Part shown: piece by piece, positions 44,757-63,028 of the stretch
Position numbering within the stretch: the stretch's first letter is position 1
Layout: every line of letters begins with the position of its first letter
Translations under genes and position numbers: made by a program
Source of the DNA: Elusimicrobiales bacterium
Lineage (GTDB): Bacteria; Elusimicrobiota; Elusimicrobia; Elusimicrobiales; UBA9959
NCBI GenBank assembly: GCA_024681855.1
Contig: JAILAB010000055.1
Location: 1-64,000 of the forward strand
Length of the DNA stretch: 64,000 nt
Reading direction: 5' to 3'
The notes under the pieces: generated by a model
The model's input: the letters and a program-made list of their open reading frames with translations, nothing else
What the model was told of the DNA's origin: nothing
The model's database searches: none

Positions 44757-46226
44757 ATGGCAAAAGAAAAAGAAGAACTTCAGGAAGAAAGAGTTCACAG
44801 AGAAATTTTTGCGAACAGTTCATTTGAGGAAACCAGAATAGCAATAGTGGAAGACGGAAGGCTTTCTGAGCTTATGTGGGAAAGACGCAGTTCCGGACAT
44901 ATAGTTGGAAATATTTATAAGGCTGTAGTGGAGAATGTCCTGCCCGGAATTTCCAGCGCTTTCATGCGCATAGGAATGGAGAAGAATGCCTATATTTACA
45001 TTTCTGATGTGTTAGGCAATCAGAAAGAACCTATAGAAAAGCTGCTTAAGAAAGATCAGGAAGTTATGGTTCAGGTTACTAAAGATGCCATAAGCACGAA
45101 GGGAATGAAGGTAACAATGGATGTTTCTCTCCCTGGCCGCTACCTGGTGCTTACCCCTTTTCAGGATTTTGTCGGAGTGTCTAAGAGCATTGAGGAAGCG
45201 GAAGAGCGTGCCAGGCTTTCCGAAATAATACGCCGCATTGCCAGCCCTGAGAAGATTGGCAAAAAAGGATGCATAGTTAGGACGGAGGCCGACGGCGCTT
45301 CGGAAAGAGAGCTTGAAAGGGAGCTGAAATTCCTGCTTCGCTTATGGGATAACATACAGAATAAATTTGACCATTCTAAACCTCCCTGCCTGCTTCACAG
45401 GGACATGGACATGACTTTGCAGGTGGCAAGGGATGTCCTTTCCGATGAGACTGACATATATATGCTTGACAACCGGGAAGACTATAAGAATGTGCTGGAT
45501 TTCGTAAGCAAAATGTCTCCGGAGCTAAAAGGGAAGGTTAAGCTGTATGAAGGCAAAACCCCCATATTCAAGGCTTTTGACATAGAAAATGAAATAGAGG
45601 ACATAAGAAAAATAAAAGTTCCATTGCCGAACGGAGGCAGCCTTATCATACAGGAAGCTGAATCATTGTGCGCCATAGATGTAAATACTGGCCGTTTCAC
45701 GGGCAGCAAATCGCAGGAAGAGACTGTAACCGCCACAAACCTTGAAGCAGCCAAGGAAATCGCCCGCCAGCTGCGATTGCGCAATATAGGCGGGATAATC
45801 GTGATAGATTTTATAGACATGAAAAAAGCCTCTAACAGGCATAAATTAGTTGAAGCCCTTGAGCATGCTGTCCGCAATGACAGGGCGAAAATAAGAATTC
45901 TGCCTGTTACTAGGCTTGGACTTGTGGAAATGACAAGAGAAAGAAAGCGGGAAAGCACTTGCAGCCTGCTTACGGAAGAGTGCCCGGAATGCCATGGATC
46001 GGGCCGCGTTCTTTCAAGCGAAAGCATAATAATAAAAATACAGCGCGAGATTTTTGGCCTTACTATGGGCGCTTCCGGCGGGAATCTGCGCATTGTCGTG
46101 CATCCTATTCTATGCGAGATATTGAAAAAGAAACAGGGACTCATTGAGCGTAATATACGCAGGCCGATGAAGATAATGTCTGATCCCCAGCTTACCTGGG
46201 AAGATTACAGGATTGTCCTAGAATGA
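44757..46226 (+). CDS. rng: Ribonuclease G (RNase E/G family)
   Basis: GNIYKAVVENVLPGISSAFMRIGMEKNAYIYISDV, AIDVNTGRFTG, CPECHGSGRV. Confidence 0.95.
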   Translation: MAKEKEELQEERVHREIFANSSFEETRIAIVEDGRLSELMWERRSSGHIVGNIYKAVVENVLPGISSAFMRIGMEKNAYIYISDVLGNQKEPIEKLLKKDQEVMVQVTKDAISTKGMKVTMDVSLPGRYLVLTPFQDFVGVSKSIEEAEERARLSEIIRRIASPEKIGKKGCIVRTEADGASERELERELKFLLRLWDNIQNKFDHSKPPCLLHRDMDMTLQVARDVLSDETDIYMLDNREDYKNVLDFVSKMSPELKGKVKLYEGKTPIFKAFDIENEIEDIRKIKVPLPNGGSLIIQEAESLCAIDVNTGRFTGSKSQEETVTATNLEAAKEIARQLRLRNIGGIIVIDFIDMKKASNRHKLVEALEHAVRNDRAKIRILPVTRLGLVEMTRERKRESTCSLLTEECPECHGSGRVLSSESIIIKIQREIFGLTMGASGGNLRIVVHPILCEILKKKQGLIERNIRRPMKIMSDPQLTWEDYRIVLE

Positions 46227-48484
46227 CAGGCAGAATGTTTTTTTCACTGTTATTAGCGGCATTCATGTTATTAGCTTCGCCTGCATCTTCGCAGGCTGCG
46301 GATTCTGTATTTCTCATAGATGGTGAAAATGCAGGATCTGCTGACACATATATGTATGAAGGCCGTTATTATGTAAGCGCAGCTCAGTCTGCCAGAATTT
46401 TGGGCGGAAAAATGGATTTGCTTCCAGCCTCAGGCCGTGTAGTAATTACGGCAAAGCGCGCAAAGCTGTTTTTTTCTGAGACATCAGACAGTGTTTCTAT
46501 TAACGGGATTAAAAAGTCATATTCCCGCCCTCTTATTATAAGGGCTGGAACTCCGTTTGTTCTTGCCGCATGTCTTGCCGATGAGGATTTGCATAAGGCT
46601 TATGGCCGGAAAATTGCATTTAGCCATGAAAACAGCCGGCCTGTCATGGCAAAAAATGACGGCAGCAATGATTCCTCAGAAAAACAGTCAGCTGCTCCTG
46701 TAGAAGCTCAGCCTAAAACTTCGCAAAATCTTGCGCAGCACTCAAATACTCCGATTGCGGCGCAGCCAAAGCTTCCGCAAACAAATTTCCCTCAAGGAAA
46801 ATCATTGCAGAGCAGTTTGGTTGCCGCAACTTTGAGCAATTCGGAGCCGGTTGCCCATATAACTGAAGCCCGTTGCGGAAAACATTCAGGTAAGACGAGG
46901 CTTGTCTTGAATATAACATCCCAAAGGCCATGGAGCCAAAAAAGGCTTAAGGAGTCTTTTATTCTTTCAGTGCCTGGTGCAGTCTCGGATATTAATTCTT
47001 CAATAGAGTCTTGCGGAAATGAGATAAGCGCAGTTAATTTCATTCGGTCCGATTCAAGAACAGAAATAATTCTTGCTCTGCCTGCATCTGCAGGACATAT
47101 AGAATGCTTTAATCTTTCCTCGCCAGACAGAATTGTTATAGATGCTTATGAGCTTCAGCCTGGGGAAAAAATAGCCTGTTCTGATGAAATATATTCTCGT
47201 GAAAATAAATCATCAGAAACGGGAAATTCTGCTGGTAAAAATAAGATTCCGTCAGCCATTGCCATTGTGCCACAGGCTTCATTTATAGAAGAATCTTTAG
47301 ATGAGCCTGAAAGCGATGAAGAAGATATTTCAGTTTATCCTGTTCTCAGGCCTTTGTCTTCTGGCGGCTCAGCCATTGTAAAGGAAAATGCCAGCCAGGC
47401 TAGACAGACGGGTCAGTATCCTGCTTCCGCATTAAACGCTCAAGATGCTTTTGTTCCGCCGGAAAGCTCTAATTTAAAATTAACAGCCAATGCGAAAAAT
47501 AAAAATACTGAAAGCGCAAAGCCTGAAATTAAGAAAAATTCTTATGCTTCCAATGTTTCAAAAAAGAAGTATCTTGTAGCGAAAAATAAAAAAGGAAAGA
47601 CTATCAGAAAAGCGGCGGTGCCAAACAATAAGGAAACAGTCATGTCTTCTTCTGTTATGGCGGGGCTTAAAGCTTCAGGCTTGAATTATTTGCCGAAAGA
47701 AGAGCCCAAAAAGAAAAAAAATCAGGAACCTTCTTCAACAGTTTCTTATATTAACCGCAGACAAAATGCAAAGGAAGCCTCTCAGCCTGCTTTGCAGGCT
47801 GGCAAGAGAATTGTTGTCATAGATCCTGCGCATGGCGGTAAAGACTTAGGCGGGCCAAGAAAATTCGGTCTGACTGAAAAGCATTTCGCTTTGCTCCTCG
47901 CTAAGGAGATTTATAAAATGTTTGAAGGCAATGAGCATTTTCAGGCAGTCCTTACAAGAAACTCAGATGTTTTTATGCCTCTTAAGGAGCGCAGCCGCAT
48001 AGCAAACGAGATAAAAGCTGATATTTTTATTTCATTGCATGCCAATGCCTCAAGCCGTTCTTCTTCTGCGAAAGGCTTTGAGGTATATTCTCTTTCAGAA
48101 AATATTTCTGATTCTGCTGCGTCAGAAACTTTAGCAAGGGAAAATGCGGTAATGGAACTTGAGAGCGATAGCGAGAGACCGTCGGCTGAGGCTGTTATAA
48201 GCGGAAAAGACGGTTTCAGCATTCGGGAAGAAAGCGCCAGGCTTTCAAACCTTATTTCTTCCGAGCTGGCAAGAGGAACTTCATTTAAGAATAATGGCAG
48301 CAGAAAGGCAGATTTTATAATGCTAAGGCTGCCAGACATGCCAGCCGTATGCGTTTTTGCCGGATATATGACAAATTCAGAAGATAAACAGAAAATTGAT
48401 GACAGACAGATGCGCAAGCGCATAGCCCGGTCCATATATAATGGCATAATGGCATACGGGGAAATGAAAGGCTGGACAAAATGA
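46223..48484 (+). CDS. AMIN + Amidase_3 protein (N-acetylmuramoyl-L-alanine amidase family); catalytic Glu missing
   Basis: VVIDPAHGGKDLGG, EKHFALLLAKEI, ISLHANAS; PAVCVFAGYMTN in place of the PSVLVESGFLCN form. Confidence 0.85.
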   Translation: MTGRMFFSLLLAAFMLLASPASSQAADSVFLIDGENAGSADTYMYEGRYYVSAAQSARILGGKMDLLPASGRVVITAKRAKLFFSETSDSVSINGIKKSYSRPLIIRAGTPFVLAACLADEDLHKAYGRKIAFSHENSRPVMAKNDGSNDSSEKQSAAPVEAQPKTSQNLAQHSNTPIAAQPKLPQTNFPQGKSLQSSLVAATLSNSEPVAHITEARCGKHSGKTRLVLNITSQRPWSQKRLKESFILSVPGAVSDINSSIESCGNEISAVNFIRSDSRTEIILALPASAGHIECFNLSSPDRIVIDAYELQPGEKIACSDEIYSRENKSSETGNSAGKNKIPSAIAIVPQASFIEESLDEPESDEEDISVYPVLRPLSSGGSAIVKENASQARQTGQYPASALNAQDAFVPPESSNLKLTANAKNKNTESAKPEIKKNSYASNVSKKKYLVAKNKKGKTIRKAAVPNNKETVMSSSVMAGLKASGLNYLPKEEPKKKKNQEPSSTVSYINRRQNAKEASQPALQAGKRIVVIDPAHGGKDLGGPRKFGLTEKHFALLLAKEIYKMFEGNEHFQAVLTRNSDVFMPLKERSRIANEIKADIFISLHANASSRSSSAKGFEVYSLSENISDSAASETLARENAVMELESDSERPSAEAVISGKDGFSIREESARLSNLISSELARGTSFKNNGSRKADFIMLRLPDMPAVCVFAGYMTNSEDKQKIDDRQMRKRIARSIYNGIMAYGEMKGWTK

Positions 48485-49287: not shown

Positions 49288-49306
49288 TTTATAGATGGAG
49301 AATGAA

Positions 49307-51106
49307 ATGTTAAAGAAAATTTTTTGTTTTTTCCTTTTTCTCTTGTCAGCATTTTCTGCTGCTTATGCTGCGGAAGAAAGGACTATGTTCAAGAATGATT
49401 CTAAGACAGCTGTAATGCCTATATGGATTTCAGACGGCAAAGAATATGTTCAGGCCTCAAAAGCCGCAAAGGCATTAAGCGGAAAGATAGACGTACTTTC
49501 CGCATCAGGCAAGGTAGTGTTTAAAAGCAGGAAGCTGCAAGTTGTATTTAAGGAAACTTCTGATTCCGTGTACACAAATGGCAGCGCTGCTGAATTTTCG
49601 CAGCCCATGCTTGTAAGGGCAGGAATTCCGTATTTATCAATAGAATATCTTTCTTCAGATATTTTCGCAAAAGCATACGGAAAGAAAATTTCTTTCAAAA
49701 ATGAAAAACAGCCGGCAGTGAATGAAAAAGCTTCTTCAACAGCTGTTGCTAAAGATGAGCTTGCTTCGGGCCAGCATGCCATTGAGGTTAAATCCTTGCG
49801 CTGCGGTTCACATGAGGACAGAACTCGCATTGTGCTTAATTTATCTGAGCCTGGCTCGTGGGAAGAGGAGCATACAGCTGATTCTTTTATATTGCGCATT
49901 TCAGGAGCGGTTTCTAGGATATCTGCTCCAGATGGTAAAACTGGCCCTGAGGTCAAAGATGTTTCAGTTGTTAAGACAGAATCTGGCGCTGAATTGCGAG
50001 TGTCTCTGTCATCTGAAGCTGGCGAGATAAAAGTTTTTCGCCTGTCATCTCCAGATAGGCTTGTTTCAGACATTTATAGGGCTAAGCCCGGTTCGGTTCA
50101 CAGCGAGGAATCTGATGATGGCAGCGATTATAATGAGATAGAATCCTTAGCCGCAATGCAGTCAGCGCAGGAAAATGCGTCTGACAACAATGAGGAGAAT
50201 ATTGATATTTATCCTGAATTAAAACCCTTGGATGATTCCGGCATTTCTGCAGGCTCTGCCGGCGTATATGAGTCGGCCTCGGAGCCTGCTCCAGAGACTG
50301 TTGTGGTTACCGAAGAGCAGCGCAGGGGAAAAAAAGTTATAGTCATTGACGCTGGCCATGGAGGGCATGACTCTGGAACTCATTTTGACATAACAAAAGT
50401 AACATATTCCTATAAAAAAAATAAGAAAGGTAAAAAAGTAAAAGTTAAGAATACAAAAGTAATACGCACTATAAAGGAGAAAGATCTTAACCTGCTTCAG
50501 GCGAAAGAGCTGATAAAGCTTTTTGAAAAAGATTCCAGATTTAAGGCTGTGCTGACTAGGGATAAGGACTATTTTGTTACATTGCCGGGACGCAGCACAA
50601 TGGCTAAAAACCTTAAGGCAGACGCTTTCATTTCCCTTCATATAAATTCAGCTGGCAAAAATCCAAACAATGCGTGTAAGCCTCATGGCTTTGAGATTTT
50701 CTCAATGACAGAAGATAAAATGGACAGTGAAGCGCTGGCTGTCGCAGCACGTGAAAATACTGTTTTTTCTGACGAGGAAAGAGAAGCTCTTCTTGCCATA
50801 GAGCAGACTCAAGACACTTTCCTGCAGATGAATGCCAGGAATAGCGGATATCTGCTTGCGGAAGCCATTGCGGAGCAGTTCAAGGCTAAAACCAGCATTC
50901 CTCCCAATGGAGCCACGGGCGTGAAAAAAGCAAATTTTGCGGTGCTTAGAAGAGCCAGGTTTCCTTCCGTTCTAGTGGAATCCGGCTTTTTGTGCAATGC
51001 ATCCGACAGGCCAAAACTGGAAGATCCTAAAGTCAGAAAAAAAATTGCGGAGGCAATATATCATGGTCTGGTCAATTATGGCAAAAATGCAGGCTGGTTT
51101 GATTAA
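49307..51106 (+). CDS. AMIN + Amidase_3 N-acetylmuramoyl-L-alanine amidase
   Basis: VIDAGHGGHDSGT, EKDLNLLQAKEL, ISLHINSA, PSVLVESGFLCN; paralog of 46223..48484. Confidence 0.9.
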   Translation: MLKKIFCFFLFLLSAFSAAYAAEERTMFKNDSKTAVMPIWISDGKEYVQASKAAKALSGKIDVLSASGKVVFKSRKLQVVFKETSDSVYTNGSAAEFSQPMLVRAGIPYLSIEYLSSDIFAKAYGKKISFKNEKQPAVNEKASSTAVAKDELASGQHAIEVKSLRCGSHEDRTRIVLNLSEPGSWEEEHTADSFILRISGAVSRISAPDGKTGPEVKDVSVVKTESGAELRVSLSSEAGEIKVFRLSSPDRLVSDIYRAKPGSVHSEESDDGSDYNEIESLAAMQSAQENASDNNEENIDIYPELKPLDDSGISAGSAGVYESASEPAPETVVVTEEQRRGKKVIVIDAGHGGHDSGTHFDITKVTYSYKKNKKGKKVKVKNTKVIRTIKEKDLNLLQAKELIKLFEKDSRFKAVLTRDKDYFVTLPGRSTMAKNLKADAFISLHINSAGKNPNNACKPHGFEIFSMTEDKMDSEALAVAARENTVFSDEEREALLAIEQTQDTFLQMNARNSGYLLAEAIAEQFKAKTSIPPNGATGVKKANFAVLRRARFPSVLVESGFLCNASDRPKLEDPKVRKKIAEAIYHGLVNYGKNAGWFD

Positions 51107-51127: not shown

Positions 51128-51163
51128 AGAAAAAAGGACTTCATTTTTTGAAGTCCTTTTTTG
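51128..51163 (+). terminator. Bidirectional terminator between convergent genes
   Basis: AAAAAAGGACTTCA-TTTTT-TGAAGTCCTTTTTT. Confidence 0.93.
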
Positions 51164-51181: not shown

Positions 51182-52438
51182 TTATTTCCCTTGATTTAAT
51201 TGTTTCCTGTTGGAGGTTAACGGGAAAGAAAGGACAAGCCATAAAGCGGCGAATGCTGCCGCAACGCCAGGATATATGGCCGGAAGAACTGTTATTCCCC
51301 TTATCCCGAAGAATGAAAATATCGCCGCAGTGCTGCCTTTGGCAAATCTGTACATAAATGCATCGGCTACTTGTTTTGCCCTATAGCGCACATCATAAGG
51401 AAGCGGTATGTACAGCGTTTCCTTGGTTGCCCTGAAAAGTGAATAATCCAATCCTTTAAACATTAGAAAAGCAAAAGCCGCTATGCTTAATGAAGGCATA
51501 AATATTAGGAGGATGCATGTTATTACATGTATTGCCGGAATCACCACAAGTATTGTGCGCCGCTTTATATAGTGGAGAATAAACGGGGTAATGCAGAACT
51601 GCATAATGAAAGAAAAAGCATTCACTTTCATCCAGAAACTGCCAAAATACGCCGTTCTTTCGTCAACCGTTGGTATTGCTCCCTGTACAAGCTGAGACCA
51701 GCGGAAATCTAATAACGTTGCCACTACTTGAGTGGAGAAAATGATAAGAGCTATGAAAAGCACAGTTTTGTGTTCCCATATTACGCTCAAATGCAGATGC
51801 CCTTTTTTACCGTTTTTCTCGGATTCCGATGGTTTCGGTTCCCCAGCTCTTTCATAAGCTATTTTTGAAAGAATTGCCGCAGGCACTATGCTTAAAGCTG
51901 AAAAAATAAGAAAATATTCAGTTCCGATTTTTCCCGCATATTGTGAAATAAGAAAGCCGCCCAGCAGCGGGCCTAATGCTGCCATGCCGGCTACAGGGCC
52001 ATTAAATATTTTGCTTTCGCTGTCTTTCAGTACGCTGTTTATGAAAGACCAGTACTGTTCAGAAATAACTACTGAATATGCTTCCTTGAATATGAGAATA
52101 AGAAAGACAAGCCATTTTCCGGCATTGTCTAAAAATATCCATGACAGAAATAATATCAGCGCGCTTATGGCCATGCTTGCAAGCATGGATTTTTTAGCTC
52201 CGATTTTAGAAAGCATTATGCCATAGCAATATATTATTGCTGCCATCATTACCGGAACAAATGCGATGGCATAAGGTTTTGCCGTAGCATCCCAGTATTT
52301 AAGAAATATTGATTCTATAGGAGAGCGCACAAACTCATAGCCGCAAAAAAAGAACATTGCGGATAATCCTGACAATAACACCGCTACTCCGTTTTTTTTC
52401 CCGCGCTCGCTTTTTAAGGTCTCTATAAGTTCTGACAT
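51182..52438 (-). CDS. Multi-TM transporter resembling ATP/ADP translocase (NTT)-like/MFS proteins
   Basis: ISEQYWSFINSVLKDSESKIFNGPVAGMAALGPLLGGFL; DYSLFRATKETLYIPLPYDVRYRAKQVADAFMYR. Confidence 0.7.
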   Translation of the reverse strand: MSELIETLKSERGKKNGVAVLLSGLSAMFFFCGYEFVRSPIESIFLKYWDATAKPYAIAFVPVMMAAIIYCYGIMLSKIGAKKSMLASMAISALILFLSWIFLDNAGKWLVFLILIFKEAYSVVISEQYWSFINSVLKDSESKIFNGPVAGMAALGPLLGGFLISQYAGKIGTEYFLIFSALSIVPAAILSKIAYERAGEPKPSESEKNGKKGHLHLSVIWEHKTVLFIALIIFSTQVVATLLDFRWSQLVQGAIPTVDERTAYFGSFWMKVNAFSFIMQFCITPFILHYIKRRTILVVIPAIHVITCILLIFMPSLSIAAFAFLMFKGLDYSLFRATKETLYIPLPYDVRYRAKQVADAFMYRFAKGSTAAIFSFFGIRGITVLPAIYPGVAAAFAALWLVLSFPLTSNRKQLNQGK

Positions 52439-52475: not shown

Positions 52476-53483
52476 TTAAGTTCCGCGGCGGCGTTTCTTT
52501 ATTATTACAGGCTTCTTGAAGTTTACTGATAATGAGAAACGGTGAACGTCTCCCAAGTCTCCAAACGGGGAAAAAGCATAGTCAAAAGAATATACATCGC
52601 CGAATTTTATGCCGGCTCCCATGGAAAAATTGTTTGAGCCTTTTACTGAGCTGTCCTTATTTCTAGTGTTAATGCCTCCGCGCAAGGAAATCATTAAATC
52701 TTGTGAAGGGGAAATATTCAATTCAGCTCCGGCGGCATAGAATGTGTCATAGTCATCATATTGTATGGCATCTGCGGTAATTATAAGGTATTCTGTGGCT
52801 TTTGTGATTGAGCCAAAGCGCAAAACCATTGGCAGATCATTTTCCTGTTTGTCAAAGCGCATTGAGCCTATCATATTCTGTCCTGCAAATGCTAATCTGA
52901 ATGTTCTGTTGAAAAACCATGGCGAAAGAATGCCGATATCAGCTGATATTGTGCTGTCCATGTCATCTATTCTGGAAGACACGAATTTTCCGGCTGCTCC
53001 CATTATAAAGCGCTCTTCAGGATCTTTGTTGAATCCTGTTATATAACAGGAGAAGGCTATGCTTAGCATTAGGTCATAAGGCTTAAAGCTGCTGGTTAAT
53101 TCCCCATGCTCGTCTGTCCCTTCTATTGACCCGTAGTTCATGTATTTAGCAGAAAATCCCCATGCTCCCATGTCCCCTGTGTTTTCTGCATATCCAAAAT
53201 AGCTTAATGATGTGTCGGCCAAATACATTGAATGCATCATTGCTATGGACTTGTAACGCACGCTTGTGACTGAGGCAGGATTCCAGTCTAATGCGAAGGC
53301 ATCTTCGCTTGCGGCTGTATATGCTTCACCCATTGCGGAAGCTCTTGCTCCGGAAGCTATTTTCAGAAACTGGCCTGTTTTCGTGCCGGTATCAGAACTG
53401 GAGGCATTCAGCTCCGAAGGCATGATTGCCAGCGCCAGCATCAATGAGGTTAAAAGTGATAAAGCAGTATACCGTTTTTTCAT
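52476..53483 (-). CDS. PorV/PorQ (UPF0164)-like outer membrane protein
   Basis: GTKTGQFLKIASGARASAMGEAYTAASEDAFALDWNPAS; beta-barrel pattern. Confidence 0.85.
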   Translation of the reverse strand: MKKRYTALSLLTSLMLALAIMPSELNASSSDTGTKTGQFLKIASGARASAMGEAYTAASEDAFALDWNPASVTSVRYKSIAMMHSMYLADTSLSYFGYAENTGDMGAWGFSAKYMNYGSIEGTDEHGELTSSFKPYDLMLSIAFSCYITGFNKDPEERFIMGAAGKFVSSRIDDMDSTISADIGILSPWFFNRTFRLAFAGQNMIGSMRFDKQENDLPMVLRFGSITKATEYLIITADAIQYDDYDTFYAAGAELNISPSQDLMISLRGGINTRNKDSSVKGSNNFSMGAGIKFGDVYSFDYAFSPFGDLGDVHRFSLSVNFKKPVIIKKRRRGT

Positions 53484-53486
53484 GAT

Positions 53487-56400
53487 TTACCTCTCAATGG
53501 CAAGCTTATAAGTTTTCTTAACGGATTTGTCATCTTTTGATTGTATGAAAACTATATATATGCCGCTTGCAGCTTCATTGCCATGGGCATTTCGTCCATC
53601 CCAGGAGGCAGATGTTCCCGGGGCATCTATTTCCCTTACCAGTTCGCCTAAGAATGTGAATATTTTTATTTTTGATCCGTTTCCAAAATCCGGCAAATTG
53701 ACGAAATTTACGAAACTATGTGCGGTGTTCGGCTTATACGGATTTGGGTAAATTCTTACTTTGTCTAAGTTTTTGCTTAGGCTTTGTTTTGGTTTTATTA
53801 TCTGGTAAGAGCCAAGATTCCATATTCTTGAAACAATTTTATAATAAGTTTGGCCATTTATTATTTCTGTTTCAGATGAGGAATCCACAGGCCTCCATTT
53901 ATTGGTTGTTGCATCGTAAAATGCAAGCCCCAGCTTCCCAATTTCATAATCTTGCAATCCTAGCGTGTTTTGTATGGCAGATGTGGAATATGCCACTGTA
54001 AGCGTAAGAGGAGCTTCTATGGAATACCTAAATACCCCGGAATCGCTATTATTGTTTACTGTATCAGTATCTATTTCTATTTTCACTCCTATTCCGGTAG
54101 AAGAAACGCTAATGTCCGCAACAGTAGCTTCAAACGGATTATCAAAGTAAGTTGACTTAGGATCTATAAGCGTTAATTTCAGCTGCATATTTGCAGATAA
54201 GCTGTAAGCTGGTATATAAAGCGTAGTTGTGCTGAATACAGTATTTATTTGCAGCGGGTCTGGTGAAGCCCTATCAACATAACTGCTTATAAATGGCACT
54301 ACTTTTACGGTATTGGTTGAAACAAGCACGCAATTGCTTTCATTTCCTGCTTCCGTATTTGTTGTGCGTACTATTACGTAATATTCTTCATTAGGGATAA
54401 GGTTGTCTTCAATAGTGGCAATATATAAAGTTGCTGGTACTGTGCTAGTCCTTAGATTATTAGGACAGCTTCCTCCATTGGGATATGTTAGAGTGGTTGT
54501 AGATATTTGGCTATTTTTATTAGCTATCATTATTTCATATACCGATTCTTCAGAATTATTGCCATGCTGCCAGTGGGCTGTAAATATATTGCTTCCTATA
54601 TCTGTATATGCTTCACATGTGTGGGTTATGTCACAAGGTTTAGGCAAGTCAGGCTGTGTCCATGTGCTAATACTGCTAGATTTGTCAGATGGAGTATCGT
54701 CTTTTATAGCTTTAACCCAAAAATAATATTTAGTATTTGACTGCAGGTTTTCTATCGTAACATCGCCTTTATCTTTTTCATCGGTTTTTCCGCACAGCTT
54801 TGGAAGCGTTGGATTATTACATGATTCTGGGAATTCATCCTTAATATTATAAAATAATATATATTTATAATCTGCATCATAATCATGCTCTGGATTATTG
54901 CCAAATGTCCCTGGCAGGTTTACCCTAACACGGTCTGTCATTGTTGATGATACTATTGTTGCTGGGTTCGGAGTGGCAGCGGCTGTAGTAAATGCAGCTA
55001 TTTCTTTCCAAGGGGTTTTTACATTAATTTGGTTTTGGGCTTGAACTTTCACATGATATGTTGTTACAGGTGATAAGCCCTCGCACACTGCTGTTATAAG
55101 GCCCGATGAGCTTTTGGTGCTGTATGAAATTTCTTCTGATGCAATATCTGTAGAGCATATAACATTAAATGCTGTGCCATCAGGATTGCTTAAAGCGTTG
55201 AAAGTTATAGTAATTAAGCTAGATTTAACATCACTGCTTTGATATTCCGGCAGTTCTGCCTCTGTAACTATTGATGTCGTAGATCCAAAAGATTCAAATA
55301 TCCCTTTGCCCTCTTCATTTATCATTGCCCCTCGTACATAATATCTTGTGTTGGGCAGTATGTTGTAATTTTCATTGCTTTCTATGATTAAATTAGTGTC
55401 ATTGGGGGCTCCTTCCGCATATTTTAAAGGATCAAAATATTGATTTTCGGAAAATTCAAGCCTGTATTTTTCAGCGTCTGATATAGAGAAAGGTGTATGG
55501 TTAACTGAGAAGCTGGAAGAATAGATGTCAGCTATGCTTTGACTGTTTATTGTTGCCGGCAAAGTGAGACCATAGCCGTCAGAATAGCCTGTTTCTTCCT
55601 TGTCTCCAAAAAAAGCAGTGGCAGATATCCAGTACTTAGTGTTTGGAGTTAATCCGGTTGCATTCTTTGTCTGTTCGCCAGAAGAAGGGCTTGGAATATT
55701 AATCGTGCTTACGGCAGTTGTAAAAGTGTCTTCTTTATACAAGTTTATTTTATAGCTGGTTGGAGGCGTTTCGGTGCCGGTAAATTTTATTGTTGCTGTT
55801 GTCTGAAATACTTTATCAAATCTTATGGATTCCGGTTTTCCTGCTGTTTTTGTCTCATAAGTTCCAAGATTTGTTATATTAGGCGTAGACTGGCTGTTAA
55901 ACGTGACCATGCGCACATAATACATTGTTGCAACTTCAAGGCCGGATACTTTTGCTGAGGATTCAGTGTTTGCTGCGGATGTCGAATGAATATGAGAAAA
56001 ATCAGAATGCGTGGACACATCCAAGCGGTATGAGCTGCAGTCTGCAGGATTCAAAGGCGTGAAATTTACTGTTATGCTTTCCCAGTCAGATGACATGCTT
56101 ATTGCGCTTGGATTATTATCTATTTTAGGCGCCAGGGTATATGTTGATATTGTATTTGAATAGCTTGTGCCGCCAAGCTGGTTGATTGCTGCAATTCTGA
56201 ACTGGTATTGTTTATTCGGTTCCAAATCAGAAATGCTGGCTATCATTGAAGTTGAAGTCATTATTCCGGTAAATGCGCTTATGCTTGCGAATCCGTCAAG
56301 TGAAGCTTCCACCCTTAAGTTTCCTCTATGAGCGCTGTTTGCCGCATTGGTCCATCGCAGGGAAACAGAGGATTCGTAAACCTTGTCATTATTTATTTTA

Positions 56401-57065
56401 AGGCTTGTTGGCGGCGTAGGAACGGTCATGGTTGACATAATAATGTCATCTCCATTCTCGTCCTTTTCAAAATTGTATATTCCAATGCTATTTTTTGCCC
56501 CCACTTTGTAATAATATACCGTATTTGGTGTTAATGCGGCTCCGCTGTATGACTGCTCTGTTGTGTCTGCATTGTTAGATAGAAAAAAGGCTTGTGAAAT
56601 CGAATAAATTAGCCTATATTCGGATGCGGCAGGCGAACCTTCGTCTTGCCAAAAAAAAGTATTGGTGTTCTCATTATATCCTTTTTTATGTATTTCCATC
56701 GCCAGTGTTGTTGTGGATATATAATCAGTTATGTCGGCTCCATCAGCTTGAATCTTAAAGTAAAATGTGGTATTTGGCTCAAGATGTTCTGTTATGGATG
56801 TTTCCGTAACGTCAATTCCAGCTGTTTTGCTATATATTGTCCCTGGAAAGCCAGCTTTGTAGTATAAAACCTGATAATTTTTTCCGCTGTCTCCTGAAAG
56901 CGCCCAATTCAGTTTAACTGTAGGAGTGGCCTGATAAGGGCTTTTGAAATCATAAAAGTTTATTGCGTCCGCATATGCGAAGGCAGCCATGGCTGCAAGC
57001 ATTGCCGGCAAAGATAAAAAAGCGATAATGAAGTTTTTGAATATTCTTTTCATTTTGTTTACCAT
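53487..57065 (-). CDS. Exported multi-fibronectin-type-III protein with FlgD-Ig/T9SS-type C-terminal domain
   Basis: About nine FN3-like units with LxPNTxYYxxV motifs; C-term VRIYPNPYKPN...ASWDGRNAHGNEAASGIYIVFIQ...YKLAIER. Confidence 0.85.
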   Translation of the reverse strand: MVNKMKRIFKNFIIAFLSLPAMLAAMAAFAYADAINFYDFKSPYQATPTVKLNWALSGDSGKNYQVLYYKAGFPGTIYSKTAGIDVTETSITEHLEPNTTFYFKIQADGADITDYISTTTLAMEIHKKGYNENTNTFFWQDEGSPAASEYRLIYSISQAFFLSNNADTTEQSYSGAALTPNTVYYYKVGAKNSIGIYNFEKDENGDDIIMSTMTVPTPPTSLKINNDKVYESSVSLRWTNAANSAHRGNLRVEASLDGFASISAFTGIMTSTSMIASISDLEPNKQYQFRIAAINQLGGTSYSNTISTYTLAPKIDNNPSAISMSSDWESITVNFTPLNPADCSSYRLDVSTHSDFSHIHSTSAANTESSAKVSGLEVATMYYVRMVTFNSQSTPNITNLGTYETKTAGKPESIRFDKVFQTTATIKFTGTETPPTSYKINLYKEDTFTTAVSTINIPSPSSGEQTKNATGLTPNTKYWISATAFFGDKEETGYSDGYGLTLPATINSQSIADIYSSSFSVNHTPFSISDAEKYRLEFSENQYFDPLKYAEGAPNDTNLIIESNENYNILPNTRYYVRGAMINEEGKGIFESFGSTTSIVTEAELPEYQSSDVKSSLITITFNALSNPDGTAFNVICSTDIASEEISYSTKSSSGLITAVCEGLSPVTTYHVKVQAQNQINVKTPWKEIAAFTTAAATPNPATIVSSTMTDRVRVNLPGTFGNNPEHDYDADYKYILFYNIKDEFPESCNNPTLPKLCGKTDEKDKGDVTIENLQSNTKYYFWVKAIKDDTPSDKSSSISTWTQPDLPKPCDITHTCEAYTDIGSNIFTAHWQHGNNSEESVYEIMIANKNSQISTTTLTYPNGGSCPNNLRTSTVPATLYIATIEDNLIPNEEYYVIVRTTNTEAGNESNCVLVSTNTVKVVPFISSYVDRASPDPLQINTVFSTTTLYIPAYSLSANMQLKLTLIDPKSTYFDNPFEATVADISVSSTGIGVKIEIDTDTVNNNSDSGVFRYSIEAPLTLTVAYSTSAIQNTLGLQDYEIGKLGLAFYDATTNKWRPVDSSSETEIINGQTYYKIVSRIWNLGSYQIIKPKQSLSKNLDKVRIYPNPYKPNTAHSFVNFVNLPDFGNGSKIKIFTFLGELVREIDAPGTSASWDGRNAHGNEAASGIYIVFIQSKDDKSVKKTYKLAIER

Positions 57066-57313
57066 AAATCAGGCATTCTGCTGCATGTAAATAAAACATT
57101 CATTTCTTATTATATTATAATTTTAGCAGCAATTTCTTGAAAAATCACAAAAAGCGAATATCGTTTCTTTAATGAAGACTGTTTTTAATAGCGCTGAAAT
57201 ATTGATGAAATTTGAATTTTTTATTAAAAACTCATTAGCATGATATTTTTTGAAATAACTCCTTTTTATTTATTACAATTTTGAAAGAGATTTCAATTTA
57301 TATGAGGTGAAAC

Positions 57314-58435
57314 ATGGACTATAATATCCTGGTTATCAATCCCGGATCCACTTCGGATCAGATAAGCTATTTCAGAGGGGAAAAAGAAATATTCCATAAG
57401 ACCGTAAGATATTCTCCGGAAGACCTTAAGCCTTTTGAGCATAAAAGGGCTGTGGAACAGTTTGATTTCCGCAAGACACTTATACTTAAAACAATTCAAG
57501 AAAATAATATTGATATAAATGAAGTCCATGCCTTTATAGGCCTATGCGGGCTGGTTAAGCCTGTGGAAAGCGGCGTTTATGCCGTGGATGACAATGTTAC
57601 CCGTGATCTTTATGCCGGAATTTCTGGAGATCATCCGATTAATCTTGCAGGCATACTGGCCGGATATTTCGCCAAACAGACGGGAGCTAAGGCTTTTGTG
57701 GCTGATCCGCCTGTGGCAGATGAAATGGAACCTTTTACCAAATATTCCGGCATGCCGGAAAATCCCCGCACGCCTTTATTTCACCCGCTTAATCAGAAAC
57801 GCGTGGCGCGCCATGCTGCTGCATCGGTTGGCAAACCCTATGAGGAATGCAATTTTATAATAATGCATGCAGGAGGCGGAGTTTCCGTAGGCGCGCATAA
57901 AAATGGCCGTGTCGTGGACATAAACAATGCTCTTGACGGAGAAGGCCCGTTCACGCCTCAGCGTTCCGGCACAGTGCCCGTTGGCCCGCTTGTGAAATTG
58001 TGCTATAGCGGCAAGTACACATTCCAGGAAATGTATCAGAAAGTGCGCGGGCGGGGAGGGCTTATAGCATATACAGGCACCTCTGACTGCGCTGCGATAG
58101 AGGATTATATCGCTACTGGCAATGTAAAGCCTGGCAGCGGACTTGATCCCAAAAAGGTTTCTAGGGAAGAAGCCAAAAATGTGCTTATAGGCATGGCTTA
58201 TAAAATGAGCAGGGAAATATGCGCTCTTGGAGCGATGTTCGCTGGGGAAACAATAGATGCCGTAATACTTACAGGCGGGCTTGCCCATAGCAAATTCCTG
58301 ATGAGCGAGGTAAAAAAACGTACTTCATGGCTGGCAGACCAGGTTTTAGTTTTTCCTGGAGGAGATGAGATGACTGCGCTTCGAGTTCAGGCTGAGAGGG
58401 CTCTTAATAATCCGAAAATCATAAAAAAATATTAA
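57314..58435 (+). CDS. buk: Butyrate kinase
   Basis: NILVINPGSTSDQISYFRGEKEIF, MHAGGGVSVGAHKNGRVVDINNALDGEGPFTPQRSG. Confidence 0.95.
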   Translation: MDYNILVINPGSTSDQISYFRGEKEIFHKTVRYSPEDLKPFEHKRAVEQFDFRKTLILKTIQENNIDINEVHAFIGLCGLVKPVESGVYAVDDNVTRDLYAGISGDHPINLAGILAGYFAKQTGAKAFVADPPVADEMEPFTKYSGMPENPRTPLFHPLNQKRVARHAAASVGKPYEECNFIIMHAGGGVSVGAHKNGRVVDINNALDGEGPFTPQRSGTVPVGPLVKLCYSGKYTFQEMYQKVRGRGGLIAYTGTSDCAAIEDYIATGNVKPGSGLDPKKVSREEAKNVLIGMAYKMSREICALGAMFAGETIDAVILTGGLAHSKFLMSEVKKRTSWLADQVLVFPGGDEMTALRVQAERALNNPKIIKKY

Positions 58436-58479
58436 GCTGAAGCTTTTTGCATTTCAATTTAGCAAGCAAGAGGATAAAA

Positions 58480-59418
58480 ATGTTTAAGAATTTTGATGAG
58501 CTTTATGATGCCGTGCGCGGCCAGACAAACCGCATTGTTATACCTGGCGCAAATAATATTGAGGTTCTGTCTGCCTGCCGCATGGGCCGCGATGAAGGCC
58601 TTATTTCAGGAGGAATCCTTATCGGCCCTGAGAAACAGATACGTGAACTGGCAGCTCAAGCCGGGCTCCCCCTTGAAGGATTTACGATTATAGATAAAAG
58701 CGATTATTCCGATGTGGACAAGGTTTATTCGGAAATGTGCAATCTTGCTGTCGATCTTGTAAAATCCGGCGATGGCGATTTTCTTGTTAAAGGCCTTGTT
58801 GACACAAAATGGTATATGCGTGGAATTTTGCGCAAGGAGGCCAGGGCTTTTCCTGAAGGGAATCTGTTAAGCCATTTCGCATTATTCCAAACGGAGAATT
58901 ACCATAAAATGTTTGTGATAAGCGATGTGGCAGTAGTGCCGGCCCCTACATTGGAACAAAAAGCTAAGATAATAGAAAATTCTGTAGATATTTTGCGTGC
59001 ATTGGGAATAGAAAAGCCTAAGGTTGCCGCAATCTGTCCTGTTGAAAAAGTAAGCCCTAAAATAACCAGCACCGCTGATGCGGCAGAGCTTGTTAAAATG
59101 AACAGAGAGGGTAAAATAAAGAACTGCATTGTGGAAGGCCCTTATGATGTGTATATAGCTTTCTCTAAACAGTTTGCTGAGGAAAAAGGCATTAAAGGCG
59201 CTCTGGTTCCTGGAGATTTAGACCTTGCGCTTATGCCGGAATTAAATTCAGCAAATGTAATGTATAAGGCTATATGTGTTTTTGGCAGAGGAATAAGAAA
59301 CGCTTCTATACTTACCGGTGTTAATATACCTGTAGTTTTGCCATCGCGCGCGGATTCCCCGGAAACAAAGCTTAATTCAATAGCATTGGCATGCTATCTC
59401 AAGGATAAATTCCGCTGA
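58480..59418 (+). CDS. ptb: Phosphate butyryltransferase (phosphate acyltransferase family)
   Basis: DFLVKGLVDTKWYMRGILRKE, SDVAVVPAPTLEQKAKIIENSVDI; adjacent to buk. Confidence 0.92.
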   Translation: MFKNFDELYDAVRGQTNRIVIPGANNIEVLSACRMGRDEGLISGGILIGPEKQIRELAAQAGLPLEGFTIIDKSDYSDVDKVYSEMCNLAVDLVKSGDGDFLVKGLVDTKWYMRGILRKEARAFPEGNLLSHFALFQTENYHKMFVISDVAVVPAPTLEQKAKIIENSVDILRALGIEKPKVAAICPVEKVSPKITSTADAAELVKMNREGKIKNCIVEGPYDVYIAFSKQFAEEKGIKGALVPGDLDLALMPELNSANVMYKAICVFGRGIRNASILTGVNIPVVLPSRADSPETKLNSIALACYLKDKFR

Positions 59419-60268: not shown

Positions 60269-63028
60269 ATGTTTAAAAAAATTTTTTCTTTTTTTGCTAT
60301 TTGCGCATTTCTTTATTTTCTTTCTGCTATTCCGGCTTATTCTAGGGGAATGGAAGGCTTGCCTCAGCAGACGGATAATTCACAGTCTGCGCCTGCAGCC
60401 TCAAATGCTTCGGACAACATGTCTGAGGAGCCTCCTGTTAATGGAGGGGAATTTGCAATTCCTGTAGTTGCACCTGCTGCTCCAGATTCTGAAACGCCTC
60501 CGCAACAGTTAAATCCGGCAGAAATGAGCGACTTGCAAATTTTTAAAACTTTTTACGAGGAAAAACCAGCTTTAGCCGCAACGGCAATGCTTAATACCAT
60601 GGATGATGTCCCTGGCTCGGAGCTAGACGATTTTCAGGATTTATTCTGCAATGAAATAGCTGCCATGATAGTGGCTCTTGACTCTAAATTTAAGTCAGGA
60701 GAACTTTCCGCTGCTGATTATTCGGCCCTTACCAAGAGGCTTGGCGGATATGGCCTGTACACATTGCAGACAGACGCTTATGGTGTGGAAAATCCTAATG
60801 CTGGCCTGGGGCTTGGCATAATGGCCATAGACACTATTCCTGTTAAGCCCGGTGTTAATCCTCGCCCATGGCCCTCTGCTGATTTAAAACCTAGCTCTTC
60901 CATGTCCCAGGCTATGCAAGGCACTCTTATTCCTCCACAGAATGGCATTTCTGCTCAGCTTATCCCTGCAAATGGCAATGGCAAGCCTGTTGAGCTTAAT
61001 CCGGTTCTTGCTCTTATCCCAGCGCATAAAGCTGCCAGAGACGGAGATAATGCCTTATTGCAATCCGCATTGCAGAAAGCGGAGGAATATTTCCCTTCTA
61101 AGCCTAAAATTCATGTGGCAGCGGCTTCCCTCTATTATGAATCCGGGGATTACAAGAAATCAATTTATGCTGCTAATCGCGCCATAGGTCTTAGCAAAAA
61201 TGACCCTGCGGCATATAAAGCTAGGGCTTTAGCCAGAAATGCCATGAATGATAGAAAAGGGGCTATAGAAGATGTTAATAGAGCCGTTGCAATCAATCCG
61301 CAGGATGAATCCGCAAGGCTTCTTTCTCTCCTTATCGCAAGCCGGAAACCTATAAAATCTTATAAAACAATAAGTTCCATACAAGGGATGAAAAGACAGC
61401 TTGGAATTAAGACTGATTCTCGCGATGTCGTGCGCAATGAGCCTGTAAATATTGAAACTTCGGCTATTCCTAAAACAGTTCCTTCAGGGAATGACGGCAG
61501 CGTTTCAACAGATTATGCCAAGTCTAAGGCATACACTAAAACGGCTCAGGCAAAAAATCGTCTTGGAGATTATGACAGCGCTATATCATATGCTTCGCTG
61601 GCTTTGGAAAAAGACCCTGATAACCTGGAAGCATATTTGGAACGCGCAAATGCCTATAATTCCCTTGGGCGTTATGAAGATGTGATAAGAGATACCACTT
61701 ATGTTATTGGCAAGGATGAGAGCAATATGCAGGCTTTCAATCTCCGCTCATGGGCATTGAACCGCAATGAAAATCCTAATGATGCCGCTAAGGATGCTGA
61801 GCGCGCAATCGGAATAAACCCAAATTTTGCTGATGCCTGGTTTAATCATGGGCTTGCCGCTGAAAAGCAGGGCGATTATAAGCGCATGCTGGAAGATTTT
61901 AAGCAGGCAGCTGCTTTGAATGAAAATTATGACAGAAAATATCAGGATGCTCTTGCGCAATATGGCGGCCGGGTTCCTGGTTTTTCAGCTTCCGCGCAGA
62001 ATCAGGCAACTGATTTAGGCAGCGAGGTTCAGGAGCCGGTGGCAAGCCCCATTAGCCGCTATTTCATGCTGCTGATTTTTATGCTGGTTGGCGGAACTCT
62101 TATAGCAATAGGTCTTACGCATGTGCTTCAGGGACAAAATACTGCTAAGAATGATCGCAAAGGACGCGACAAAAATCATGGCGGCGCATCAGCAGCTGGA
62201 ATGATACTTTCCCCATCTGTATTTTATGAAGGCGTTGCCACAGGCAAATATAAAATTGAAAAGAAAGTAGGGGAAGGCGCAATGGGCAAGGTTTACCTTG
62301 CAGTTGACAAGTCTCTTGGCCGCAAGGTTGCTATAAAGAAAATGAATGAGGAGATAAAAGTCAACGAGAGGGAAAAACGCCGTTTCCTTGAAGAGGCTCG
62401 CACAGTTGCCTTGCTGCATCATCCTAATATTGTTGAGATATATACAATATTTGAAGAATCGGGCGATGTTTTCCTTGTTTTTGAATACCTGGAGGGCAAA
62501 ACTCTTGATACTGTTCTTAGCAAAGACATAAGGATGTCTTTCAATAGGGTTAAGGGCATATATGAAGAGGTAGCTAAGGCATTAGACTATGCCCATTCAA
62601 AGAATGTGATTCATCGTGATTTGAAACTTTCTAATATAATGCTTACTGCTGAAGGCTATGTGAAAGTCATGGACTTTGGCCTGGCAGGCCGTGCAATAGA
62701 GGCAAGGGTAAATTCAGGGAATAGGGAAGTTGTTGGTTCTCCAGCGTACATGGCCCCGGAACAGGAAGGAGGGGAATCCTCTGTCCGTTCTGACATATAT
62801 TCATTGGGCGTATGCATGTACGAATCTCTTACCGGAGTTCTTCCCTTCCAAGGCCCGGATTTCCTTAGTCAGAAAACTCATAATTTTTATGAGCCTGTTT
62901 CTCAGTGTGTTCCTGGCTTGCCTAAAGCCATAGATGCTCTTTTGGAAAAATGCCTTGACATTGATCCGAGAAAGCGCTTTGCCAGCGCGGAGGAATTCCG
63001 CAAGGCTTTGGACGCTATTCATTCTTAA
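60269..63028 (+). CDS. Signal peptide-TPR-TM-Ser/Thr protein kinase
   Basis: Signal peptide, TPRs, TM YFMLLIFMLVGGTLIAIGL, kinase motifs VGEGAMGKVYLA, HRDLKLSNIM, DFGLAG, GSPAYMAPEQ. Confidence 0.93.
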   Translation: MFKKIFSFFAICAFLYFLSAIPAYSRGMEGLPQQTDNSQSAPAASNASDNMSEEPPVNGGEFAIPVVAPAAPDSETPPQQLNPAEMSDLQIFKTFYEEKPALAATAMLNTMDDVPGSELDDFQDLFCNEIAAMIVALDSKFKSGELSAADYSALTKRLGGYGLYTLQTDAYGVENPNAGLGLGIMAIDTIPVKPGVNPRPWPSADLKPSSSMSQAMQGTLIPPQNGISAQLIPANGNGKPVELNPVLALIPAHKAARDGDNALLQSALQKAEEYFPSKPKIHVAAASLYYESGDYKKSIYAANRAIGLSKNDPAAYKARALARNAMNDRKGAIEDVNRAVAINPQDESARLLSLLIASRKPIKSYKTISSIQGMKRQLGIKTDSRDVVRNEPVNIETSAIPKTVPSGNDGSVSTDYAKSKAYTKTAQAKNRLGDYDSAISYASLALEKDPDNLEAYLERANAYNSLGRYEDVIRDTTYVIGKDESNMQAFNLRSWALNRNENPNDAAKDAERAIGINPNFADAWFNHGLAAEKQGDYKRMLEDFKQAAALNENYDRKYQDALAQYGGRVPGFSASAQNQATDLGSEVQEPVASPISRYFMLLIFMLVGGTLIAIGLTHVLQGQNTAKNDRKGRDKNHGGASAAGMILSPSVFYEGVATGKYKIEKKVGEGAMGKVYLAVDKSLGRKVAIKKMNEEIKVNEREKRRFLEEARTVALLHHPNIVEIYTIFEESGDVFLVFEYLEGKTLDTVLSKDIRMSFNRVKGIYEEVAKALDYAHSKNVIHRDLKLSNIMLTAEGYVKVMDFGLAGRAIEARVNSGNREVVGSPAYMAPEQEGGESSVRSDIYSLGVCMYESLTGVLPFQGPDFLSQKTHNFYEPVSQCVPGLPKAIDALLEKCLDIDPRKRFASAEEFRKALDAIHS

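Follow-up and report, generated by a model that had tools for sequence, protein, structure and literature searches.

Secretion through the type IX secretion system (T9SS) has been stated to be exclusive to Bacteroidota (PMC12618676, PMC4793230). In Flavobacterium, the C-terminal domain (CTD) of the secreted protein is bound by the extracellular loops of the carrier PorV inside the translocon SprA, and motor energy is needed for the release of the carrier together with its substrate (PMC10994853). Here we analyze a locus of Elusimicrobiota that lies within a 64,000-nucleotide stretch of the genome of an Elusimicrobiales bacterium (GenBank assembly GCA_024681855.1, contig JAILAB010000055.1, positions 1 to 64,000; hereafter, the window), and in which the gene for a large exported protein, the cargo, is followed directly by a gene for a PorV/PorQ-family outer-membrane protein, the carrier (Table 1). 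Judging from sequence comparisons and structural modeling, this pair is probably one of the cargo-carrier modules of an outer-membrane exporter that resembles the T9SS. A search of the literature found no description of T9SS or PorV in Elusimicrobiota; presumably, such proteins have already been annotated automatically as 'PorV/PorQ family' or 'T9SS type A sorting domain'.

The cargo, its sorting domain and its carrier

The N-terminus of the cargo is, as judged by inspection, a Sec-type signal peptide, and the FN3 repeats that follow make an adhesive role of this protein plausible. The original prediction, which was made from the letters of the window, recognized at the C-terminus the pattern of a type A sorting or FlgD-Ig domain, and this recognition was correct: the isolated 100-aa C-terminus scores 28.6 bits with the T9SS type A model TIGR04183 (cut-off, 23) and 27.7 bits with FlgD_ig (cut-off, 27), and is similar to the C-terminal domain of PorZ (E=2e-18) and, more weakly, to that of PorU (E=7e-7). 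When the full-length cargo is searched, the TIGR04183 score is 21.3 bits, slightly under the cut-off. In an alignment of this domain with 35 others (36 in all), TIGR04183 is matched by 32 of the 36 PorV-paired domains. The possibility that we are dealing with a mere flagellar FlgD Ig domain was ruled out because the T9SS models score equally well or better and because the domain occurs in association with PorV genes.

Only 3 nt (53484-53486) separate the cargo stop from the carrier start, and the GAGG ribosome site overlaps the stop codon. The identification of this second gene as PorV/PorQ-like likewise stands: the product passes the cut-offs of the PorV_fam model NF033709 (156 bits against 90) and of the Pfam PorV family PF19572 (46 bits against 27), and its residues 15-173 match chain F of 6h3i, the PorV of the solved SprA-PorV complex (E=1e-9). 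The model of the other carrier family, PorP/SprF (PF11751), has no match in the window genome.

Cargo-carrier pairs in the genome and across the phylum

The window genome is an assembly of 2.0 Mb in 81 contigs, about 90% complete, and all statements of absence made here are based on profile searches over its contigs and 149 relatives; the survey of the phylum covers 150 Elusimicrobiota genomes. Eight PorV-family loci were detected in the window genome (E <= 5e-5), of which four exceed the cut-off and a fifth does so when its two stretches are summed. The search for additional CTD proteins that the original prediction had proposed yielded, by profile, five sorting-domain proteins including the window cargo, each of them encoded immediately upstream of, and on the same strand as, a PorV-family gene. 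Given that a common C-terminal domain is attached to unrelated passengers (Table 1), it looks like a sorting signal. As for the other PorV-family loci, one (contig C14) adjoins a pullulanase without a sorting domain, and the remaining two are at contig ends.

Could such pairs arise by chance, with a FlgD-like Ig domain ending an FN3 protein that happens to be encoded beside an unrelated FadL/PorV-like barrel? Both FlgD_ig and FN3 are common folds and the single-domain scores are modest, against which stands the recurrence of the same order and strand, in five of five cases in the genome and, in the phylum, for 37 of 57 sampled PorV-family genes, where a sorting-domain gene lies upstream within 500 bp (these 57 neighborhoods were picked among the better-scoring matches, not at random). 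Moreover, a profile built solely from the five domains of the window genome matches 30 of the 47 open reading frames (ORFs) immediately upstream of PorV compared with 13 of the 341 other nearby ORFs (Fisher p about 1e-22), and several of these 13 are the true upstream gene separated from PorV by a spurious small ORF. Thus, the pairing is not due to chance, and this explanation, to which we assign next to no probability, can be considered refuted.

Across 61 pairs from 32 genomes, distances between CTDs correlate with those between carriers (rho 0.26), compared with a mean of 0.13 upon re-pairing within genomes, where 2 of 500 trials reached the observed value. This co-variation favors dedicated carriers. 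Some PorV-family ORFs (e.g., L180, L186, L192 and L208) encode proteins of 630-660 aa, roughly double the size typical of the family, which suggests fusion with, or extension by, an extra domain.

Most of the 150 surveyed genomes encode each of the three components, namely, SprA (131 genomes), PorV-family proteins (136) and sorting domains (126), or 84-91%. SprA and PorV are both present in 129 genomes and both missing in 12, with PorV alone in 7 and SprA alone in 2, where the SprA matches are merely at about 1e-7 (Fisher p about 2e-11 for co-occurrence, not corrected for relatedness). Losses are concentrated in one family, mainly in a single genus whose genomes measure 0.5-1.4 Mb.

Two genera deserve separate mention. 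Reduced genomes of genus g25 (family f10; 0.5-1.4 Mb) lack SprA, PorV and sorting domains alike, and two near-complete genomes of this group retain just a poorly matching remnant of SprA (E about 1e-7). Genus g11 (family f2) includes many genomes of 1.3-1.8 Mb with one SprA, 1-6 PorV-family matches and 0-3 sorting domains, a set that might represent a minimal version of the system.

A homolog of the SprA translocon

The original prediction staked its T9SS-like system on a SprA- or PorU-type homolog in the genome, and an 1852-aa SprA homolog is encoded on contig C11. The only NCBIfam model to match this ORF at E <= 0.05 is TIGR04189 (SprA/Sov), with E=1e-40. Because the bit score lies under the equivalog cut-off, the assignment was tested in three additional ways. 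A profile of 21 homologs from the phylum, compared with PDB, has SprA as its sole match (5e-20, in three collinear stretches); a phmmer search of PDB with the single sequence from the window genome gave no match. The named relatives come nearly all from metagenome-assembled genomes of Elusimicrobia or Elusimicrobiota. Finally, the structure of a 1190-aa fragment of one relative was predicted from 65 sequences with a predicted local distance difference test (pLDDT) score of 77.5, and the best four Foldseek matches of this model are the SprA entries 8gl8, 8gl6, 6h3i and 6h3j (4e-49 to 3e-36), followed by a non-SprA structure at 2e-6 with a probability of 0.44. Against the SprA entries, the template modeling scores by query length are 0.40-0.45; such modest values are to be expected when the query is a fragment of a closed barrel. 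On the strength of these profiles and this model, the C11 protein is a homolog of the giant SprA/Sov-type outer-membrane barrel.

The genes around SprA bear on another explanation. In 80 loci, the recurrent neighbors are solely genes for LptF/G-like permeases (53 of 80) and ComF-like proteins (44 of 80; both named from reading the sequences, without a family search); neither partners of the system nor motor genes recur beside SprA in these loci. It is conceivable that the PorV-family proteins act as anchors in the manner of PorQ, or are ordinary porins, with the sorting domain docking the cargo to its barrel; the cargo would then be translocated by another route, with SprA involved in, for example, lipid or barrel assembly. 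The permease genes fit this scenario, as does the greater closeness of the window carrier to PorQ (108 bits) than to PorV (71 bits) by equivalog score. Nevertheless, we consider it quite improbable, given that reduced genomes lose SprA, the PorV family and the sorting domains together, that the sorting domain belongs to the type A family, the known role of which is SprA/PorV-dependent export, and that the solved SprA-PorV-CTD complexes combine exactly these three families (PMC10994853).

Searches for the motor and the sortase

Low-scoring GldL matches (1e-5 to 0.01, the best at 1.8e-5) and GldM and GldN matches (about 0.002-0.01) in a few genomes were short, partial and scattered, and were dismissed as noise. 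A Peptidase_C25 domain, the type present in PorU, was found in 1 of the 150 genomes (G006; L233 and L234), where it could belong to a PorU-like protein or to a secreted cargo. Since neither PorU nor GldL, GldM or GldN was found, the system is T9SS-like rather than a canonical T9SS; within this limit, the original proposal is supported.

It could be argued that a full type IX system is in place, with a motor (PorL/PorM), a ring (PorK/PorN) and a sortase too diverged for the profiles derived from Bacteroidota. Indeed, SprA itself is just 30-50% conserved within the phylum and scores below its own cut-off, GldL and GldM are short and so harder to detect, and the controls included no T9SS-positive genome by which the sensitivity of the profiles could be calibrated. 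We nonetheless regard this possibility as unlikely because credible GldM, GldL and GldN are found in 0 of 150 genomes and C25 in one, against 84-91% for SprA, PorV and the CTD, and because SprA is adjoined by LptF/G-like permeases and ComF, not by motor genes.

A possible mechanism

The best reading of these findings seems to be that the Elusimicrobiota set is the outer-membrane half of a type IX system with one dedicated carrier per cargo. The direction of transport, the specificity of the carriers and the retention of the cargo on the surface, all of which we infer, could then be envisaged as follows. The cargo would be exported by Sec, as its N-terminus suggests, and reach the pore of the SprA homolog; there, the cognate PorV-family carrier, positioned at the lateral opening of SprA, would recognize the sorting domain through its extracellular loops; and this carrier, still holding the cargo, would exit SprA sideways. 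As no PorU sortase was found, cleavage of the sorting domain by PorU is improbable, and the cargo is probably retained on the surface by its carrier, as type B substrates are by SprF-like proteins; there it could serve in adhesion. The energy for the release of the carrier might come from a source other than a recognizable PorL/PorM motor, or none might be required.

Several facts weigh against this reading. The C11 protein reaches 139 bits, under the TIGR04189 equivalog cut-off of 200, and the window carrier falls below both of its equivalog cut-offs (70.7 of 250 bits for PorV, 108 of 220 for PorQ); an AlphaFold model of this carrier, made from a two-sequence alignment, had a pLDDT of 31 and was discarded. 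About a third of the sampled PorV-family genes have no adjoining sorting-domain gene, and the co-variation of CTDs and carriers could also be explained by joint duplication of the pair. In the window genome, the PorU model NF033707 matches just the C-terminal domains of three cargos. GldL and GldM have no credible match in the window genome or in the 150 genomes of the phylum, as judged with profiles lacking calibration against a genome that encodes a T9SS, and the ring protein GldN has none in the 150, with PorK/GldK, PorW/SprE and PorG outside the search. Removal of the motor in Flavobacterium leaves substrates trapped on the translocon (PMC10994853).

A bolder hypothesis, which we offer tentatively and with somewhat more doubt than belief, is that type IX export exists in Elusimicrobiota in a naturally motor-less form, in which SprA would be served by numerous dedicated carriers, each produced along with its cargo and departing without PorLM, and which would be simpler, and possibly older, than the Bacteroidota machine. 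The carriers could then be used once only, or the energy could be of the TonB/Tol type or come from folding.

A second class of carriers

PorP/SprF-family proteins are encoded in 36 of the 150 genomes, the window genome not being among them. In all eight of the PorP loci that were read (L272-L279), a sorting domain of another subtype, ending in ...GGVYVYQI...FNGTVVVIR, is encoded by a gene that is adjacent or one to two genes away; the layout varies, with this gene immediately upstream on the same strand at some loci and divergent or separated at others, and at one locus the carrier ORF is unclear. The PorP/SprF-like proteins of these loci are mostly 430-750 aa long, some with TPR extensions. 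These loci resemble the Flavobacterium SprB-SprF arrangement (PMC12618676).

Operon layout and neighboring genes

Downstream of the carrier lies a transporter gene, probably in the same transcript as the cargo-carrier pair; besides PF03219, the transporter shows a weak major facilitator superfamily match. Promoter matches of the type listed in Table 1 are about as frequent in shuffled sequence.

Table 1. Features of the window and the sorting-domain proteins of the genome
Feature	Location	Strand	Basis
Cargo: exported protein, 1192 aa, six FN3 stretches, C-terminal T9SS type A-like sorting domain	53487..57065	-	ORF list, Pfam
Sorting domain, last 100 aa: YPNPYKPN...GELVREI...WDGRNAHGNEAASGIYIVFIQ...KTYKLAIER	53490..53789	-	TIGR04183, PorZ and FlgD_ig matches; 36-sequence alignment
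Carrier: PorV/PorQ-family outer-membrane protein, 335 aa, translationally coupled to cargo gene	52476..53483	-	NF033709, PF19572, PDB 6h3i_F
TLC/ADP-ATP-translocase-like transporter, 37 nt downstream of carrier gene	51182..52438	-	PF03219, 44.8 bits, over cut-off
Candidate promoter of the pair, TTTTCA-18-TATAAT	57114..57143	-	consensus match only
Candidate intrinsic terminator, 14-bp stem and T tract, after third gene of apparent operon	51130..51162	-	strong terminator-like stem
Sorting-domain protein 1 of 5: window pair, FN3, 1192 aa	window		
Sorting-domain protein 2 of 5: kelch and FN3, 2138 aa	contig C77		
Sorting-domain protein 3 of 5: papain-type peptidase and lectin-like, 1466 aa	contig C70		
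Sorting-domain protein 4 of 5: FTP/PepSY propeptide domains, 1232 aa	contig C40		
Sorting-domain protein 5 of 5: interrupted by contig end	contig C64		

Elsewhere in the window, all on the forward strand, are butyrate kinase followed by phosphate acetyl/butyryltransferase (57314-59418), a pair transcribed divergently from the cargo; two large N-acetylmuramoyl-L-alanine amidases that contain AMIN-like and copper-amine-oxidase-N-like domains and are separated by a single gene (46223-48484 and 49295-51106); and a protein of 919 aa that combines TPR repeats with a serine/threonine kinase domain at the C-terminus (60269-63028).

Comparison with known systems

A nearly universal set of SprA, PorV-family proteins and sorting domains outside Bacteroidota would extend the range of the T9SS and supply the poorly known Elusimicrobiota with a route of surface-protein export; furthermore, in a lineage that has the translocon and multiplied carriers without a recognizable motor, the purpose of the motor becomes testable. 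The system would function like a T9SS yet lacks a detectable motor and sortase, and hence appears to be a variant, not a canonical member. It differs from the T9SS of Bacteroidota (Flavobacterium johnsoniae, Porphyromonas gingivalis) in belonging to another phylum, in the lack of detectable PorL/GldL, PorM/GldM, PorN/GldN and the PorU C25 sortase, and in encoding numerous PorV-family proteins in each genome, every one next to a cargo, rather than one PorV shared by all type A cargo; the window carrier also differs from the F. johnsoniae PorV (6h3i chain F) in its length, 335 aa compared with 402 aa, and in scoring below the PorV equivalog cut-off. Common to both systems are the SprA/Sov-family translocon, the PorV/PorQ-family barrel, the Sec-type signal peptide and unrelated passengers that carry an Ig-like type A sorting domain at the C-terminus. 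The type B SprB-SprF pairs (PMC12618676), from which the window pair differs in its PorV/PorQ-family carrier and type A-like tag, share with it one carrier per cargo, encoded directly downstream, and a cargo that probably stays bound to the cell surface.

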